Program-made: the position numbers and the translations under genes
In this document: positions 45,367 through 62,645 of the stretch, in pieces
How positions within the stretch are numbered: the stretch's first letter is position 1
Layout: the number at the start of each line of letters is the position of its first letter
Notes under the pieces: model-generated
What the model was told of the DNA's origin: nothing
The model's input: the letters and a program-made list of their open reading frames with translations, nothing else
Databases searched by the model: none
Assembly (NCBI GenBank): GCA_002711995.1
Contig: PASN01000008.1
Coordinates: forward strand, 1 to 64,000
Reading direction: 5' to 3'
Source: Halobacteriovoraceae bacterium
GTDB taxonomy: Bacteria > Bdellovibrionota > Bacteriovoracia > Bacteriovoracales > Bacteriovoracaceae
DNA length: 64,000 nucleotides

Positions 45367-46217
45367 AGGTCTATGGTTTTTTCATTATCTACAGCAAACC
45401 ATTTTTGTGGCCTTATTACGTATGAACGACTGGTCTCCCCTAAAAAAGCACCCCACCAGCTAAAGGAACTGTTGGCGATTACGAAATGTCTGCATTGCGA
45501 TATAAGATATATATCAAACTCAGGATTAGATTCATTGCCAGTAATGAATGTTGTTGTAAACTTTGATTTTAAATTTTCTTTGACCCAAGTGGGGTCATCA
45601 GAGAAAACAAAAAGTTTTGGATTTTCTAACTTACTTCCTAAGTAGTTCAAAGCTTTATTATAATAAGACAGTGAGCAGACACCATGAAAGGACGCTGCTG
45701 ACTGATTAGTTATATAGTCGCCCCGTCTAATATGTAAGGCTATGGATTCAGAGCTTAAAATGCTTTCATGATATTTTCGATTTTGCTCACCAATATCTCC
45801 CCTTAACTTAAAATCCTTAAGAAGATATGGCCTTGCTTCCTGTATGTACTTATAGGATTGCCAGTAGCCTGAATACAAGTTGGCTCCACTCTGCTCTAAA
45901 TACTCAGGTCGAAATTCAAACCCCTTTTCCACAACAAAACCAAAAAACTTTGATGGGGCTATTCGATGAAGCAATTGAGAGATTCTTCTTAGTTTACCAT
46001 TCAGTAAAACTGGTTTAGATTTCGTTACTTGAACTTCTGAACCTAACTCATAGCACCCCAAGGCATAGCTCCTAGGAGTTGTTGAACTGTCAAACTTTTG
46101 GTCAAAAAAACTAGTTTCAAGGGATAATCGAAGTCCATGCTTTAGGCTTAATGCCTTTCCGAAAGCATATTGGAACATCTGATTTCCAAGACCGCCGCTT
46201 AAAGAAATAATAATCAA
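45339..46217 (-). CDS. Glycosyltransferase family 11 (alpha-1,2-fucosyltransferase-like)
   Basis: The 292-residue protein shows the GT11 signature 'SLSGGLGNQMFQYAFGKALSLKHG' at the N-terminus, 'ALHIRRGDYI' (about 142-151, GDP-fucose binding) and the C-terminal 'FVIANSSFSWWGAFLG'. Family members move fucose from GDP-fucose to galactose. No GDP-fucose synthesis genes are in the window. It overlaps the C-terminal part of the broken GT4 gene by 4 bases. Confidence 0.92.
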   Translation of the reverse strand: MIIISLSGGLGNQMFQYAFGKALSLKHGLRLSLETSFFDQKFDSSTTPRSYALGCYELGSEVQVTKSKPVLLNGKLRRISQLLHRIAPSKFFGFVVEKGFEFRPEYLEQSGANLYSGYWQSYKYIQEARPYLLKDFKLRGDIGEQNRKYHESILSSESIALHIRRGDYITNQSAASFHGVCSLSYYNKALNYLGSKLENPKLFVFSDDPTWVKENLKSKFTTTFITGNESNPEFDIYLISQCRHFVIANSSFSWWGAFLGETSRSYVIRPQKWFAVDNEKTIDLCPKHWKAF

Positions 46218-47417
46218 TTCTCACCACCCAGCATCTCAATATAAAGTGACTCATAATTCTTTGCAATCCTATCCCAAGTAAACTGAGCCTGCCAAGCCTT
46301 CCGTACCGACTCGCCTACTTGTTCTAAACGACCAGTATCACTTAATATTTGATTTAAGAGATCTGCTGATTTTGATGTATCGATGTAAACCTGCCCCTTT
46401 TTAATACACTTAGTGGGCATCAACCATCCACCCCCCAACCATTCAAGTATTTCAGCGGAATTACCAGCCTCAGAAACGAAGGCCGGCAAAGATGCTGCAG
46501 CAGCTTCAAATATGACCAAAGGCGAACATTCCACTTTTGATGGAAAAACTAATAAATCTGCTTCTTTAAATAGTGATACTAGTTCTTTCCTTGAAAGGTT
46601 TGAAAAAACAACTCTCTTTTCAAGTTTAGTGCCCTTTAATATTTTTTTTTAATTGGCACAGCGAATAATTCTTATTAATTTTTCGCTTCATCCTAGACTT
46701 AAATGAATCCTTAAATAAAACTTCATTTCCATTAAGAACTAAATAGGTATTTTCTCGTTTTGATTTTTCCAAAACTTCAATTGCCTCATAGTGGCCCTTT
46801 AAGCCAGTAAAGCTTCCAACATGAAGAAGTAGATTTGCATCAGAGGGGATCCCCAGTTGTTGTTTAATATTTAAGGTCGCAAGGGAATTGAACTCTCTCT
46901 CATCAGCAGCATTTGGTATCACCTTGAACTTCTCTTTCACATAAGGAGCTGAGAATAAAAAGTCTTGGTACCTCTTAGATAAAAATACTGTTTGATCAAA
47001 GCATTTAAGACTGTACTTCATTTTTTCGAAATATTTTACGAAGGCTTTATCATTTAATCCTGAAAATCCAGTTGGTACGAAAACTTTTTTTCCGTTTAAT
47101 AGCTCAATATTATCTAGGAGTAAGTCACAACTCCACTGCTGAGCGGCAAAAACAGTTATCACATCAAACTGGTTATTTTTTAGAAATTCCAAGTATTGGT
47201 CGGAATCCCCCTTAATTCCGTAAACAGAGTTTCCAGATATACGGAATTGGCGGATAGCAACTCCCTTTACTTCAATATCCTGTCTATCGGGATGAAATGA
47301 GGTGGCAACTGTAACCTTGTGCCCAAACATTACAAGTCTTTCAGAAATTTGTCGGACTACTTCGGACATACCTCCTTTATAGGGAGGGTAAGTTTCGACA
47401 ACATGAAGAACTCTCAT
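46214..47417 (-). pseudogene. Glycosyltransferase family 4, frameshifted in an A9 tract (possible phase variation)
   Basis: The first frame (47417 to 46626) gives 263 residues with the GT4 N-terminal domain ('VVETYPPYKGGMSEVVRQIS') and 'LLHVGSFTGLKGHYEAIEVLE', then ends at 'CQLKKNIKGH'. With 8 instead of 9 A's at 46642-46650, the frame reads on through 'LVSLFKEADLLVFPSKVECSPLVIFEAAAASLPAFV', the EX7E nucleotide-sugar site, to 46214, giving a normal 400-residue enzyme. All other sequence is intact. So this is an OFF state, a recent pseudogene or a sequencing slip. It overlaps the 47414 gene by 4 bases. Confidence 0.85.
46642..46650 (-). repeat. A9 homopolymer at the frameshift of the GT4 gene
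   Basis: Nine T's on the plus strand (nine A's in the gene) mark where the GT4 frame breaks. A tract of 8 restores the 400-residue protein. The neighbouring glycosyltransferases have in-frame A8 tracts. Confidence 0.8.
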
Positions 47418-50689: not shown

Positions 50690-51904
50690 CTACTTTATAA
50701 GTTCCTTATAGATTTGAATATATTTGTTTGCAACATTTTGTGGTTCAACCTGTGCAAGAATAGAGTTTCTAACAATGACTGGGTCGAATGGCCTCATTGC
50801 AAAGAAGTCCGATATTAACTTTTTTACCGAAGCCTTATTTGGCTTCAGTGCAAGAAGTCCGTTAACTCCATCCACAATAACATCCTTCATACCTCCCCTT
50901 GCAAAACTTAAAACAGGGGTACCGCAGAGCAGGGACTCTACCATTACGTTAGGAAAGTTATCTTCCCTTGAGGGCAAAAGGTAGGCATCAGACAATGCAT
51001 AAATTTCTGCCATTTTTGATTGATCTTTAATTCTTCCCAAGAATCGAATATCTGGATTTCCTTCGAATTCGCCTGAGTGATCATCACCTACAACTAGCAA
51101 TTTAACACCCTTTTCTACCAAAGTCGGAACAGTCTGTGCCAACAAATCCCCACCCTTGCGAAAATTATCAACACTTTGACTTACAAAAAGAAGAACTTTA
51201 GTGCTTTCTAAAAAACCATATTTTTGTCTAAGCTCCCTTTTACTCTTCAGGTTAAATGTTTCAACATCAATACAGTTGGGAATGTGAGAGTGATTACAAC
51301 CAGCAAAGAGCTCACTATGTTGAGACTTTTCAACCAGCCATTTAGAAGGAGTGACCACATGAATCCTCCCAGCGAATGATAAGGAGTACCTTTTAATTTC
51401 TCTATACTTTTCTTCAACTTCTTCGAGAAGTAATTTAAACCTTTCCATATCACCCTCATAATGTGCCCCCCCAAACAAGGGATTCATATCATGAAAAGTC
51501 CATACGATTGGCCGATCAACTCCCTTAAAAAAAGAGGGGAAATTGATAAAGTCAGAAATCCAATGAAGGTGAATTATGTCGGGTTCAAAATCCCTTACAA
51601 ACTTCTCTACACGATATTCATTAAGAGGAGTAGAAAAGATTTCAAAGTTCTGACCACTAGTAACTATTTTCTGATGCTCTCTGGTTAGACGATCGAATCG
51701 CGTTTTAAAAACTCGATTAACTTTCCTCACGAATGGCTCTTTGTGCTGAAACTCTATTACACCTTCAGTCAGCCTCGTTTCTTCACCTACATACTTGAAT
51801 AATGCATTAGAACTAATACCTGAATCAAGTAAGGCCTGATGCAACCTTAGACAAGCAATCCCTGCCCCCCCGCCTGAATACGTATTAATATGTAAAACTT
51901 TCAT
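50690..51904 (-). CDS. Glycosyltransferase family 4
   Basis: The 404-residue GT-B enzyme begins 'MKVLHINTYSGGGAGIACLRLHQALLDSG', has 'WTFHDMNPLFGGAHY', 'IPNCIDVETF', 'FVSQSVDNFRKGGDLL' and the site 'SREDNFPNVMVESLLCGTPVLSF'. A G7 tract (51865-51871) lies in codons 11-13 and is in frame. The start overlaps the upstream methyltransferase stop by 4 bases. Confidence 0.92.
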   Translation of the reverse strand: MKVLHINTYSGGGAGIACLRLHQALLDSGISSNALFKYVGEETRLTEGVIEFQHKEPFVRKVNRVFKTRFDRLTREHQKIVTSGQNFEIFSTPLNEYRVEKFVRDFEPDIIHLHWISDFINFPSFFKGVDRPIVWTFHDMNPLFGGAHYEGDMERFKLLLEEVEEKYREIKRYSLSFAGRIHVVTPSKWLVEKSQHSELFAGCNHSHIPNCIDVETFNLKSKRELRQKYGFLESTKVLLFVSQSVDNFRKGGDLLAQTVPTLVEKGVKLLVVGDDHSGEFEGNPDIRFLGRIKDQSKMAEIYALSDAYLLPSREDNFPNVMVESLLCGTPVLSFARGGMKDVIVDGVNGLLALKPNKASVKKLISDFFAMRPFDPVIVRNSILAQVEPQNVANKYIQIYKELIK

Positions 51905-52809
51905 TTTTTTTGAGCAACAACTAAGATAGAGTGACCAATAACTTTTTTAGCAAACAGGCTCAAAACCCGATGCCTAAAGAATCTAAGCTTCTCCTTAAAC
52001 ACAATCTTTCTTACAAATTTAGGAGCATGAAACTTAGTCATTAAGTAATCTGTATACCAGTCGTAATGGGCCTCCTGCAACGGTTCTTTAAGAACTTCGA
52101 TCACATTAAAGCCAAAATAATTCAAAGCCCTTTTCAAGCTATTCTCCGTCCACCAACCTATATGATGGGGAGGAAAGTTCAAAGTACCTCCATCACAAAA
52201 TTTAATAAACGAATCGTTATTTGGCACACTAACCATCAGCTTGCCACTCTCTCTCAAAGCTCTTTTAGATTTAACAAAAAATTCCTTTACATCGGGAAGG
52301 TGCTCCAAGACCTGGTAAGAACACACCACATCAAAAAACGATTCCTTACCTTCAAAAAAATCTTCATCAAATTTTCCCACAGGGATATGCTTTTCCTTAC
52401 AAGCATCTAGAGCTTTTTGGTTATATTCTACGCCCCAAACATTACACCTCACTTCACTCCGGACTCGCTCAAGGAAATAACCAGCACCACACCCGACTTC
52501 CAAAATATTGTCATCTTCTTTTAAGTGCTTTCGAGAAGACTCGTGCTCCCACTTCCAAGGAGCATAATACCATTCAAATCCTTGTAATTTTTCGTAAAAT
52601 CCATTACTTCCAACTAAAGGTGGGTGAAAAAATTCATAGTCAGTACTTGGGCACTGGTAAAGACTGATTCTATCCCAACCTCTCATCTCACTTTCAACTT
52701 CTACGCCATAAAGAGTTTTGTATTCCAAAATTATTCTTTTTACGTCATAATCTTTTACAAAGATACTTTCTTGACCGCTCACAGGTGATTTAACACTCAC
52801 TTCTTTCAA
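51901..52809 (-). CDS. SAM-dependent methyltransferase of the glycan cluster
   Basis: The 302-residue protein has motif I 'NILEVGCGAGYFLERV', 'VWGVEYNQKALDAC' and 'FDVVCSYQVLEHLPDVKEFFVKSKRALRESGKLMVSVPNND'. It resembles methyltransferase type 11 proteins with an N-terminal zinc-free extension and an aromatic C-terminal part. The start is TTG at 52809, with a GAGGGG ribosome-binding site that lies inside the tail of the preceding glycosyltransferase when that is read in the restored frame. Confidence 0.85.
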   Translation of the reverse strand: MKEVSVKSPVSGQESIFVKDYDVKRIILEYKTLYGVEVESEMRGWDRISLYQCPSTDYEFFHPPLVGSNGFYEKLQGFEWYYAPWKWEHESSRKHLKEDDNILEVGCGAGYFLERVRSEVRCNVWGVEYNQKALDACKEKHIPVGKFDEDFFEGKESFFDVVCSYQVLEHLPDVKEFFVKSKRALRESGKLMVSVPNNDSFIKFCDGGTLNFPPHHIGWWTENSLKRALNYFGFNVIEVLKEPLQEAHYDWYTDYLMTKFHAPKFVRKIVFKEKLRFFRHRVLSLFAKKVIGHSILVVAQKK

Positions 52810-52936
52810 CTATTTTCCCCTCAAAAACTTTAAAAGTTTCCTAATATTCACTTTGATGCCTTTTTCAACCTTAGGAGGTTTGAAAAAGTCTCCCACAATA
52901 TCAATTGCACAATTTGACTCTTCAACAGGAATTTTT

Positions 52937-53743
52937 TCAACAGCCCCCCCCCGGATTCAACTCCCTCCAAACATACTTTAAATCTTCTCCACAATTCTCT
53001 CCACTTCCATCATGACCAACATTGTTAACAAAAGAGTGAGACGGGTGAAGACAAAGTCCATTCTTCAAAAAAACTGATGCATACCATTTTATTGCCCAAG
53101 TATTCAATTTCCCATCGACATTCATAGTTAAATGGGAAAAAAAATCATATTGATTGTTTATATTGAATTTGCCTTTTTCCTTGCGGCGTAAAATTTTATT
53201 CCTTAGCTCAACTGGATCTAATTCCAGCTTTTCCCAAGATTTTTTCCATGTTCCCCACCCCCAACAAGATGTGGCCCGATAAAAAAAAGTTTCCGGCAAT
53301 TTGGAGTTCCACTTATGAGGATACCAGTAGCCACTAATATGATCCACTCCCTCGACATTTTCATAAATTTCAAGGGACTGGTTCATGAAGTTTAAAAATC
53401 CTGGGGACAGAACAAGGTCATCCTCAAGCACAATAACCCTATTATACTTATTAATAATATCAGTGACACCTGTAATTATAGATTTAGCTAATCCAAAATT
53501 CTCATTCCTTGAAACAACTTCAACCTTTCGTGCTTTATCAAATCTTTTCGCAATTTTCCTAACCAGATTAATATTCTTCATACTAACTCCTGAACAATCA
53601 GTTTTTGGGCCATCGCAAAAAATAAATACATCACTATCTGCAACTTCAGGATTCATTGCAAGTGACTCTAATAATGCTTTCGTATGATCTGGTCTAGCAT
53701 AGTTAAAAATTACAATTGGAGCGAATTTACTATTCATCCTCAT
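52937..53743 (-). CDS. Glycosyltransferase (GT-A, GNT-I-like) truncated by a G9 tract
   Basis: The 268-residue product has 'APIVIFNYARPDHTKALLESL', 'VIVLEDDLVLSPGFLNFMN' (EDD metal site), 'SCWGWGTWKKSWEKL' and 'GLCLHPSHSFVNNVGHDGSGENC', the pattern of glycan GT-A enzymes of the GNT-I/HlpA-like type. As written it ends 'NPGGGC' right after nine G's. With eight, the frame runs on through 'AVEKIPVEESN' and a basic 'KVNIRKLLKFLRGK' tail to a TAG at 52810, giving about 310 residues that abut the next gene. This would couple the two. An OFF state of a contingency locus is likely. Confidence 0.85.
   Translation of the reverse strand: MRMNSKFAPIVIFNYARPDHTKALLESLAMNPEVADSDVFIFCDGPKTDCSGVSMKNINLVRKIAKRFDKARKVEVVSRNENFGLAKSIITGVTDIINKYNRVIVLEDDLVLSPGFLNFMNQSLEIYENVEGVDHISGYWYPHKWNSKLPETFFYRATSCWGWGTWKKSWEKLELDPVELRNKILRRKEKGKFNINNQYDFFSHLTMNVDGKLNTWAIKWYASVFLKNGLCLHPSHSFVNNVGHDGSGENCGEDLKYVWRELNPGGGC
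52944..52952 (-). repeat. G9 homopolymer at the frameshift of the GT-A gene
   Basis: Nine C's on the plus strand (nine G's in the gene) sit at the frameshift point. Poly-G tracts of this size are known contingency elements in Campylobacter, Helicobacter and Neisseria. Eight G's would restore the frame. Confidence 0.8.
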
Positions 53744-54661: not shown

Positions 54662-55390
54662 ATGAACTTAAAATATAAATATTATGCAATCTGCCCAGCA
54701 AGAAAAGGCAGCAAACGAGTTATCGATAAAAATATCAAGCCACTCAACGACACACCTCTCTTCCAATATACTGTTAATTTTTTGGAGAAATTAGATTTTA
54801 TTCATAAATCCTTTATCTCGACTAACGACAAACGAATTCTAGACTTTCTTAAAGAACATTCAAATATTGAAGGAATAAGAAGAGCTGATAAGTTATGTGA
54901 AGATAAAACTTCAGATCTTGAACTCCTTACCGACTATATTGAAAATTTAAACTTATCTAGCCACGAAATAAATCAGGCGGTAATAATCCTATTGAGGCCT
55001 ACAAGCCCCATACGTAAAGTGAACGAATTATTAAACATGATAACCATGTTTGAATCTGATAAATTCACTTCCGTCCGTTCTGTGGTTAAAGCCCAAGGTG
55101 TGCATCATCCGTACTGGATGTTCTCTAAGGAGGATAATGGTACCGCTCGAGAATTTGTTGAAGGAAAGACAATTCAATTTTTTCATCAAAGTCAACTCCT
55201 CCCAGACGCCTATCGCCTCACAGGAACTTATGACCTAATCCCTATGAAAAACATTTTTCAAAACAAAAATCTTTATGGTTCAAGGATGGGATTATATGAA
55301 ACTGAAATGATAACTGCGATCGATATTGATACTGAATTCGACTGGAAAGTAGCAGAAGCTTTAATAAAAGGACTTAGCCATGAAAAATAA
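54662..55390 (+). CDS. neuA: Acylneuraminate (nonulosonic acid) cytidylyltransferase, NeuA-like
   Basis: The 242-residue enzyme has the CTP-binding start 'YYAICPARKGSKRVIDKNIKPL' (Ala-Arg-Lys-Gly-Ser-Lys-Arg at 13-19), 'LLRPTSPIRKV' and a C-terminal 'AIDIDTEFDWKVAE' with acidic metal ligands. It activates a nonulosonic acid as CMP-sugar. The next gene, a NeuB-type synthase, overlaps by 11 bases. The sugar (sialic, legionaminic or pseudaminic type) cannot be told from this gene alone. Confidence 0.92.
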   Translation: MNLKYKYYAICPARKGSKRVIDKNIKPLNDTPLFQYTVNFLEKLDFIHKSFISTNDKRILDFLKEHSNIEGIRRADKLCEDKTSDLELLTDYIENLNLSSHEINQAVIILLRPTSPIRKVNELLNMITMFESDKFTSVRSVVKAQGVHHPYWMFSKEDNGTAREFVEGKTIQFFHQSQLLPDAYRLTGTYDLIPMKNIFQNKNLYGSRMGLYETEMITAIDIDTEFDWKVAEALIKGLSHEK

Positions 55391-56450
55391 ACTTATATTT
55401 AACAAGGAAATCACCCTAGGAGGAAAGGTCATAAATCAAACCTCCCAAACTTTCATCATTGCCGAAGCAGGAGTAAACCATGGTGGCGACGTTGAATTGG
55501 CAAAAAAAATGGTTGACGTCGCTAAAGAAGCAGGAGCTGACGCTGTAAAGTTTCAAGCCTTCAGAACTGAGAAACTAATTAAGTCAGACGTAGAGAAAGC
55601 TGAGTATCAAAAAACAACCACAGGTGAAAAAGAGTCACAGGCACAAATGCTTAAAGGCTTAGAGTTAAACGTTGAAGCCTACATAGATCTAAAAGAATAT
55701 TGTAATCAAAGACAAATCCTGTTTTTAATCACCCCCTTTGATGAGTTTAGCCTGGAGGAATTAGAGAAGTTAGACATAGATGCTTATAAGATAGGGTCAA
55801 CAGACGCGACAAACATCCCCTTTTTAATTAAGGTAGCAAAAACAGGTAAACCGATCCTCTTTTCAACAGGCATGTGCTACTTAAGTGAAGTACAATTAGC
55901 ACTGTCGAAAATGGCCTTGCACAACAAAAATATAATTTTACTTCAGTGCGTTGCAAACTATCCTATCAGTGACAATGAGGCAAACCTAAACGTTCTAAGT
56001 ACTTACAAAGCAGAGTTCGACATTCTTCTGGGCTACTCAGATCATTCAACTGGAGTCGGTGCAGCACCTTTTGCAATTCCATTAGGAGCGAAAGTCCTTG
56101 AGAAGCATTTCACACTTGATAAATCACTAGAAGGGCCCGATCATAGTGCGTCCTTAAGCCCACGAGAACTCAAAGAGTTTGTCAACTTGGTAAGAAGAGT
56201 TGATCTTTTTTTAGGAAAAGAAGAAAAGGCTCCTACAACATCAGAAAAGCATACGAGGAAGGCATTACAAAAATGCTTAGTAACCCTTACCAGTATTAAA
56301 AAGGGAGAACTTTTCACTGAAGACAATATTATAGCAAAAAGAACTGGGGGGAATGGCATTTCTCCTATTCACTCAGAAAAAATCATTGGGACTAAAGCAA
56401 CAAAAAACTATGCTCCTGACGACATTATAGTTGAAAGGATTGAAAAGTGA
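55380..56450 (+). CDS. neuB: Nonulosonic acid synthase, NeuB-like
   Basis: The 356-residue protein has the NeuB TIM-barrel ('FIIAEAGVNHGGDVELAKKMVDVAKEAGADAVKFQAF'), 'LGYSDHSTGVGAAPFAIPLGAKVLEKHFTLDK' and a C-terminal SAF/antifreeze-like domain ('GNGISPI', 'IIVERIEK'). NeuB condenses phosphoenolpyruvate with a 6-carbon amino sugar to a nine-carbon keto acid. The overlap with neuA and a 4-base overlap with the NeuD-like gene indicate one operon. Confidence 0.93.
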   Translation: MKNKLIFNKEITLGGKVINQTSQTFIIAEAGVNHGGDVELAKKMVDVAKEAGADAVKFQAFRTEKLIKSDVEKAEYQKTTTGEKESQAQMLKGLELNVEAYIDLKEYCNQRQILFLITPFDEFSLEELEKLDIDAYKIGSTDATNIPFLIKVAKTGKPILFSTGMCYLSEVQLALSKMALHNKNIILLQCVANYPISDNEANLNVLSTYKAEFDILLGYSDHSTGVGAAPFAIPLGAKVLEKHFTLDKSLEGPDHSASLSPRELKEFVNLVRRVDLFLGKEEKAPTTSEKHTRKALQKCLVTLTSIKKGELFTEDNIIAKRTGGNGISPIHSEKIIGTKATKNYAPDDIIVERIEK

Positions 56451-57046
56451 GAAACATCATCATAGGAGCTGGAGGTCATGCAAGGTCGTTGATTCCGCTA
56501 GTTATTCAGAACTTAGGCCTTGACACGTGTGTTGCCGATGAAAATTTTTCTGTTAAAGAAGAAATTTACCCTGGAATCTTCCTAGATCGACAAGTTCCTA
56601 TTGAAACAATAAACAAAAATATTATTTTGGCTATTGGAGACTCCTTAAAGCGAAAAAGTCTTTATGAGCGCTTTAATGTTTATAAGCCGAACTTGGTACA
56701 CGAACTTTCATTTATAGAGGAATCAGCAATTCTCGGTGAATCTAATCAGATCTTTGGAAATGTTATAATTAACTCCCTTGCCAAAATAAATGATAATAAC
56801 ATTATAAATACTGGCTCCATCCTGGAACATGAAGTCGAGGTTGGTAGTCATAACCATATTAGTGTTGGAGCTAATATATGTGGTAGAGTAAAGATTGGAG
56901 ACAACTGCTTCATAGGAGCTGGGTCGACGATTATCGATGGGATCAAGGTTTGTGATGATGTTATTATAGGTGCGAACAGTGTAGTTATAAAAGATATTAC
57001 AGAGCCTGGAACATATATAGGAAATCCAACAAGGAAAATTAAATGA
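56447..57046 (+). CDS. neuD: NeuD/PglD-like sugar acyltransferase
   Basis: The 199-residue protein has an N-terminal Rossmann-like piece ('IIGAGGHARSLIPLVIQNL') and then hexapeptide repeats of a left-handed beta helix, ending 'VIKDITEPGTYIGNPTRK'. NeuD/PglD types acetylate an amino sugar or the nonulosonic acid with acetyl-CoA. It overlaps neuB and the next gene by 4 bases each. Confidence 0.88.
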   Translation: MRNIIIGAGGHARSLIPLVIQNLGLDTCVADENFSVKEEIYPGIFLDRQVPIETINKNIILAIGDSLKRKSLYERFNVYKPNLVHELSFIEESAILGESNQIFGNVIINSLAKINDNNIINTGSILEHEVEVGSHNHISVGANICGRVKIGDNCFIGAGSTIIDGIKVCDDVIIGANSVVIKDITEPGTYIGNPTRKIK

Positions 57047-61214: not shown

Positions 61215-62645
61215 ATGATTGAAAAATTATTATGCTCAAAAGACTCCTTATTGCTCGATGTCCTCAAAGTTATAAATGAAAATGAAAAAGGTATTGCATT
61301 TATAGTTGATGAGAATAGAAAATTATTAGGGGTCATAACTGATGGAGATATTAGAAGATCTCTACTATCTGGTGGAGACTTGCAAGAAGACGCCCTAAAA
61401 CATTCCAACAGAGATTTCACATACGCTACCAACAAGGAAAGTCTTGAGGCTGTTCTTAAAAAGGCTGTAAAAGGTAGAAACATCATCCCTATCCTTAATT
61501 CAAAAAAAGAGGTAACTGATTACTTTGAATATAGTGCTGAGGTCAGAGTTCCCGTTGCAGCCCCATCACTAAGGGGAAACGAGTTTAAATATTTAACAGA
61601 AGCTTTTCTATCTTCCTGGATTTCAAGCTCTGGTCGATATATTAACCAATTTGAAAGAAACTTCTCTAATTTCACTAAAACGAAGCACGGAATTGCTGTT
61701 TCTAATGGAACCTGTGCTTTACACTTAGCTTTGCTAGCTTTAAACATAGGTCCAGGAGATGAGGTTATTGTTCCAGACCTAACCTTTGCCGCTACAATCA
61801 ATTCGGTAATTCATGCAGGTGCAACTCCCGTCATTGTGGACATTGATGAAACTACTTGGTGTATCAGCCCTCCTAAAATAGAGGAGTCAATTTCACCAAG
61901 GACCAAAGCCATTATTTGTGTACATTTATTTGGCCAACCGTGTGATATGGAGTCAATACTTGAGATCACTAAAGAAAACAACATTTCCCTTATTGAAGAC
62001 TGTGCACAAGCACACGGTGCTCAATTTAAAGGTAGGCCTGTCGGCTCTTTTGGAGATGTTGGCTGCTTTTCATTTTTTGGAAACAAGATTATCACAACAG
62101 GAGAAGGTGGCATGTGTGTTACCAATAACTCAGATGTTGATAAAAAGATAAGACTTCTCAGAGACCATGGAATGAATAAGGATAAAAGATATTGGCATGA
62201 TGTAGTCGGTTTTAACTATCGACTAACAAACCTTCAGGCTGCTATAGGAGTGGCCCAGTTGGAAAATATTTCTAAAACCTTATATTGCAGAGAAAAAATT
62301 GAACAAAAATATAAGTCAGTTCTAGATAAATTTAATTTTTTAAAACTGCAGGCTCCCCCCTCCAGAAATTGTGACAAGGTTACTTGGCTTGTATGCGCTC
62401 TTGCTCAGGACAATAAAACAAGGAACCTTGTAGTTCAAACTCTATCACGAAATGGAATTGATACTAGGCCTTTCTTTTATGCTCTAAGTGAAATGCCTCT
62501 TTATAAAAAGTATGTTTGCTCTAATGAGGTCAGCGTGCAAGTCTCTCAAAGAGGTATTAGCTTTCCAACAGTTTTAAACTTAGAACCAAGTTATTTTGAG
62601 AAGTTCAAGTTAATAATGGAAGAAGAGATTGCAAAATCTCTGTAA
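61215..62645 (+). CDS. CBS-domain / DegT aminotransferase fusion
   Basis: Residues 1-112 are a CBS pair ('IAFIVDENRKLLGVITDGDIRRSLL', 'IIPILNSKKEVTDYFEYS'). Residues 113-476 are a DegT/DnrJ/EryC1 PLP aminotransferase with 'GIAVSNGTCALHLALLALNIGPGDEVIVPDLTF', 'IEDCAQAHGAQ' and Lys about 293 in 'FFGNKIITTGEGG'. CBS pairs bind adenine nucleotides. In legionaminic acid loci CBS is usually fused to the nucleotidyltransferase (PtmE), so the fusion to the aminotransferase (LegC-like) is unusual. It probably aminates a keto-sugar for the nonulosonic acid. Confidence 0.85.
   Translation: MIEKLLCSKDSLLLDVLKVINENEKGIAFIVDENRKLLGVITDGDIRRSLLSGGDLQEDALKHSNRDFTYATNKESLEAVLKKAVKGRNIIPILNSKKEVTDYFEYSAEVRVPVAAPSLRGNEFKYLTEAFLSSWISSSGRYINQFERNFSNFTKTKHGIAVSNGTCALHLALLALNIGPGDEVIVPDLTFAATINSVIHAGATPVIVDIDETTWCISPPKIEESISPRTKAIICVHLFGQPCDMESILEITKENNISLIEDCAQAHGAQFKGRPVGSFGDVGCFSFFGNKIITTGEGGMCVTNNSDVDKKIRLLRDHGMNKDKRYWHDVVGFNYRLTNLQAAIGVAQLENISKTLYCREKIEQKYKSVLDKFNFLKLQAPPSRNCDKVTWLVCALAQDNKTRNLVVQTLSRNGIDTRPFFYALSEMPLYKKYVCSNEVSVQVSQRGISFPTVLNLEPSYFEKFKLIMEEEIAKSL

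Follow-up and report, generated by a model that had tools for sequence, protein, structure and literature searches.

The reading frame of a glycosyltransferase gene is broken at a minus-strand run of nine G's (G9) in the 64,000-nucleotide stretch of DNA analysed here as a whole (the window), and this break is probably an error of base calling or assembly rather than an on/off switch; we infer that the sequenced cells are without it. Error is the best explanation because this assembly is judged unreliable at long G runs, on the grounds that ftsA, an essential gene of cell division, is broken at a run of eight G's and that a run of ten G's in tgt alters an invariant valine. On this explanation, the intact gene would belong to a surface-polysaccharide cluster of a member of the Bacteriovoracaceae and encode an ordinary glycosyltransferase of ~310 aa, with a GT-A fold, a metal-binding E-D-D motif and a conserved C-W-G-W-x-T-W sequence. 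The intact enzyme would end just before a methyltransferase gene, to which it would probably be translationally coupled, and misreading of the long G run by the base caller or assembler would generate the frame break at G9. (What this means in practice is that frame breaks at long G runs of this assembly are not to be read as phase variation without recourse to the reads.)

The broken gene and its tail

The G9 run lies within the coding frame, and its length sets that frame. It occupies positions 52952-52944 of the minus strand (nine C's at 52944-52952 on the plus strand), and the glycosyltransferase frame that opens with ATG at 53743 meets its stop at 52937, just past the run, after 268 aa. 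The sequence stays open in another frame as far as a TAG (52812-52810), a stretch of 44 codons that includes one spanning the run; this TAG abuts the TTG at 52809 with which the next methyltransferase gene starts (Table 1). An earlier note on this DNA had described a glycosyltransferase frame cut short by G9 and a TAG placed directly before the methyltransferase TTG, and both features are there in the sequence; its figure of 42 codons to the TAG needs correction.

Table 1. Features on and around the two broken glycosyltransferase genes of the window
Feature	Coordinates	Strand	Basis
G9 homopolymer tract	52944..52952	-	sequence
268-aa open frame, GT-A fold glycosyltransferase (GT2/GNT-I-like); predicted catalytic domain complete, C-terminal end missing	52937..53743	-	
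C-terminal tail of the G9 glycosyltransferase gene, other frame, ending at TAG 52812-52810	52810..52943	-	
Following gene, SAM methyltransferase (Methyltransf_23); its TTG start adjoins the TAG	51901..52809	-	
A9 tract (T9 on the plus strand), the other break in the locus	46642..46650	-	
N-terminal piece, GT4-type glycosyltransferase	46626..47417	-	
C-terminal piece, GT4-type glycosyltransferase split at A9, other frame	46214..46534	-	

The shortest of the 95 homologous frames has 295 aa and the median is 309; all 95 are open through the site of the tract. (The set is made up of the best 80 of 469 confirmed homologs together with loci from the genome search, and includes at least two duplicate pairs, L080/L110 and L106/L111.) The possibility that 268 aa is the normal length of the family is rejected, since no homolog is that short. 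At the other extreme, the open frame of homolog L015 (genome G018) reaches 563 aa and carries a long C-terminal extension. The placing of this bacterium in the Bacteriovoracaceae relies on L080 and L106, two MAG records of that family, whose homologs yield the same alignments and tails as L110 and L111, from genomes G068 and G120 of the window's own family.

Only in the frame that ends at the TAG is the coding score of the tail positive, and the tail closes with I-P-x-x-E-S, as do homologs L027 and L029. Its match to the family profile spans positions 265-300 of 306, directly beyond the 3-254 covered by the N-terminal piece, and scores 2.5 bits, which is weak on its own; 1 of 500 shuffles reaches that score, and none does so at the tail's place. 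An open frame arising by chance is rejected by the positive coding score and the collinear profile match. Because the homologs are at least 295 aa long, and because the tail has the family ending, the coding score and the profile match, the gene is, as judged from sequence, truly broken in this assembly and the tail is part of it. The suggestion that the layout at the TAG is the natural end of an intact gene is borne out by the homolog lengths, by the resemblance of the tail to the family and by the ordered C-terminal helices of a modelled homolog (see below).

With a true indel, fixed or recent, the gene would be a young pseudogene, or its product a shortened enzyme, and the accessory locus around it would be changing fast. 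The locus does look accessory, with essentially no match in the two other genomes of the genus (a search for the locus found nothing there except two stretches of 32-47 bases in one of them, and a search for the glycosyltransferase protein found no match in either), and the catalytic domain is intact. The tail retains coding character and family resemblance, however, so that any loss must be very recent, and a true indel leaves the break in ftsA unexplained; this origin is decidedly improbable.

The predicted enzyme

The profile scores of the glycosyltransferase lie below the curated cut-offs (20.6 bits against 27 for PF13641, 18.5 against 25.4 for PF03071); of the 32 relatives in the alignment, 21 match PF00535 at E values up to 0.001 and 19 match GNT-I. 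The acidic metal-binding motif E107 D108 D109 is invariant in all 32 aligned sequences, and C160-W-G-W is also among the invariant residues of the alignment. The model of the 268-aa form has a mean pLDDT of 90.8 and is confident except at residues 260-268. That of the full-length homolog L027 (317 aa) has a mean pLDDT of 94.0 and places helices at 270-283, 288-295 and 298-315, beyond the catalytic domain; its best PDB matches are POMGnT1 (5ggf) and GnT-I (1fo8), at a TM score of about 0.4-0.5 and 12% identity. The motif, the model and the fold matches of the homolog place the protein among GT-A enzymes. Going by the models, the short form would keep a complete catalytic domain, and the tail lost from it would be ordered.

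Long G runs across the genome

The 3.70-Mb genome contains six runs of at least eight G's, against 10-29 expected, and four of at least nine (either strand), against 1.8-6.4 expected, the expectations coming from Markov models of order 0-3 derived from 526,654 sampled bases. For runs of at least nine the expectation per 64 kb is about 0.03-0.11; the earlier description of G9 as very unusual in this DNA therefore stands for the window and does not extend to the genome. The six runs of at least eight are distributed one each to this glycosyltransferase gene, ftsA, tgt, a class-II DAHP synthase gene, an FA_hydroxylase gene and an intergenic site. There is neither an excess of long G runs nor a concentration of them in surface genes, one of the six being in a polysaccharide gene. 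Among the five coding runs, the frame is lost at two and an invariant residue is altered at a third; of the remaining two, one is doubtful and the other normal.

The other frame-breaking run is the most telling. The genome's only ftsA match is broken at G8, with 249 aa open (L012:853-2120; the run at G000:C18 63923-63930), and in each of the other 31 genomes that have a match, ftsA is 409-468 aa long (39 genomes were searched and 32 have a match, this one included). Each half matches FtsA, the two in different frames and over consecutive parts of the protein, and ftsZ lies directly downstream. Base-level alignment at the G8 site covered three relatives, the genus mates G001 and G002 and, in addition, G019, and each of these has one more base there. 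A cell lacking FtsA is not expected to be viable, and ftsA could not plausibly be a gene that is switched off.

Slippage of RNA polymerase or of the ribosome on the run, yielding some full-length protein both here and from ftsA, would reconcile a broken ftsA with life, and slippage on homopolymers is established in general (see also PMC6260861). Nevertheless, this explanation is highly improbable for G9: a search of the homologs for a conserved site of programmed frameshifting or slippage found none (95 of 95 are open), runs of this kind are absent from the relatives' ftsA and from the glycosyltransferase family, and the substitution in tgt is left unexplained.

That substitution is at a G10 run (L009; G000:C12:41463-41472) that keeps its frame intact and encodes Gly at a position occupied by Val in 29 of 29 relatives; the DNA of two genus mates was also compared at this site. 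The G11 run in the FA_hydroxylase gene encodes Gly-Gly-Gly at a place where 19 relatives have mostly bulky hydrophobic residues, several of them with one Gly or Ser, and may, on this comparison of sequences, be a weak sign of error. The DAHP synthase gene has an intact G8 run that agrees fully with its family.

What supports error at G9, besides the other runs, is that neither the tract nor the short form occurs in any homolog among the 95 frames (the longest G/C run in these frames is seven, and none has a run of eight or more). Counting against error are the intact G8 of the DAHP synthase gene, the retention of frame at the G10 and G11 runs, and the presence of two breaks within one locus.

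Frame breaks and run length

The frequency of breaks increases with tract length. G/C runs of 6, 7, 8 and 9 are broken in 0 of 46, 1 of 26, 1 of 2 and 1 of 2 cases, respectively, in a sample of 526,654 bases that is non-random (most of its stretches were placed on known G7 runs), and the single sampled runs of 10 and of 11 bases are unbroken. A/T runs coincide with frame changes in 1 of 52 cases at length 8 (an ordinary gene overlap at 51904), in 1 of 7 at length 9 (the GT4 gene of the window) and in 0 of 1 at length 11. These rates rest on the frame-change model, since a strict flank test is too strict near stops and left both breaks of the window unclassified. The frame-change list has 139 entries, mostly ordinary gene overlaps, of which seven regions were read closely; four homopolymer frame breaks were recognised in the sample, at A9, C7, G8 and G9 runs. 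(The C7 run, at L124:13203-13209, coincides with a frame change within a gene that encodes a Calx-beta protein in its second part.)

The dependence on length would fit errors and true slippage alike. Nearly all of the shorter runs lie outside called frame changes (25 of 26 G/C runs of 7, 46 of 46 G/C runs of 6 and 51 of 52 A/T runs of 8), and because of this the assembly is considered to be mostly good, a further point against error at G9.

The polysaccharide locus and the case for phase variation

The broken gene has as its neighbours glycosyltransferase genes, methyltransferase-type genes, a polyprenyl glycosylphosphotransferase gene, NeuB-, NeuD- and PseF-like genes and sugar aminotransferase genes; by this predicted content the locus is a surface polysaccharide cluster. 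NeuB-, NeuD- and PseF-like genes and a LegC-type aminotransferase gene are located at 54662-57046 and 61215-62645 of the window, so that genes for synthesis of sugars of nonulosonic-acid type adjoin the glycosyltransferase cluster. Minus-strand G runs of 7, 7 and 9 lie within 1.5 kb of each other (51466-52952), and the two G7 runs fall in an open GT4 gene, where they code for stretches rich in glycine. A promoter scan around the glycosyltransferase gene found no more than is found in shuffled sequence.

The second homopolymer break that had been reported in the locus is real: a GT4-type gene is split at A9, and the two pieces on either side match consecutive parts of GT4 profiles. Two of the four breaks of the sample thus lie no more than 6.5 kb apart in the polysaccharide locus, and the other two are in the remaining 462,654 sampled bases. 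The Poisson probability of two or more breaks in 64 kb is ~0.03, for a window that was picked by a reader seeking such features; clustering of the two breaks is weak evidence, and it is the strongest point left in favour of phase variation.

A contingency locus would work by slipped-strand mispairing at G9 (and at A9 of the GT4-type gene), toggling glycosyltransferases and varying the surface glycan, with the assembly representing an off or shortened phase. A glycan gene with the tract within its coding frame, a break against the family length and two breaks within 6.5 kb are what would be expected of such a locus. So is the structure, in that the part retained in the short form is a complete, confidently modelled catalytic domain and the tail that would be lost is ordered: toggling, if it occurs, removes the C-terminal tail and leaves the catalytic domain in place. 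Set against these are the six G runs of at least eight where 10-29 are expected, with one of the six in a polysaccharide gene, the absence of the tract from all 95 homologs and the similar break inside ftsA, and a contingency locus at this site is rather unlikely. Its fuller form, in which G9 and A9 together toggle two glycosyltransferases of a nonulosonic-acid-bearing cluster and allow a bacterium of a predator family to vary its own glycan, for example against phages, is quite unlikely.

The earlier note had taken phase variation to be likelier than chance, and had named absence of the tract from relatives as an outcome that would refute this. None of the 95 homologous frames has a G/C run of eight or more, the genome has no excess of such runs and a like break occurs in ftsA; the proposal is not supported. 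Error of base calling or assembly remains the preferred reading of the G9 break.

Comparison with known systems

The GT2 and GNT-I enzymes of GT-A fold (PF00535, PF13641, PF03071; structures 5ggf and 1fo8) have the E-D-D motif and the fold in common with the window protein, and are related to it by weak profile and PDB sequence matches. The window protein falls below the Pfam cut-offs and the TM scores of the best fold matches are low, and donor and acceptor are accordingly not to be deduced from these likenesses.

The poly-G glycosyltransferases of Campylobacter, as described for example in PMC539331, PMC6321876 and PMC3068675, likewise have a G run in a glycan gene, and there, as here, a change of one base in its length breaks or restores the frame. 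The Campylobacter genes are distinguished by many tracts, by variation of tract length between strains and by a link to surface genes, whereas in the genome examined here a single polysaccharide gene contains such a tract and tracts are not in excess. A full-text literature search for homopolymer phase variation in Bdellovibrio returned nothing on these bacteria by title; should the tract prove variable, the group would gain an uncommon example of phase variation through simple repeats.

Homopolymer tracts are prone to sequencing artefacts, Illumina included, according to PMC8808543. The G9 break resembles the singletons of the GeneTack survey in that it stands alone, is confirmed by homology and affects a gene with intact homologs, and that survey (PMC3711429) states that singleton breaks confirmed by homology are expected to be sequencing errors and not genuine indels.
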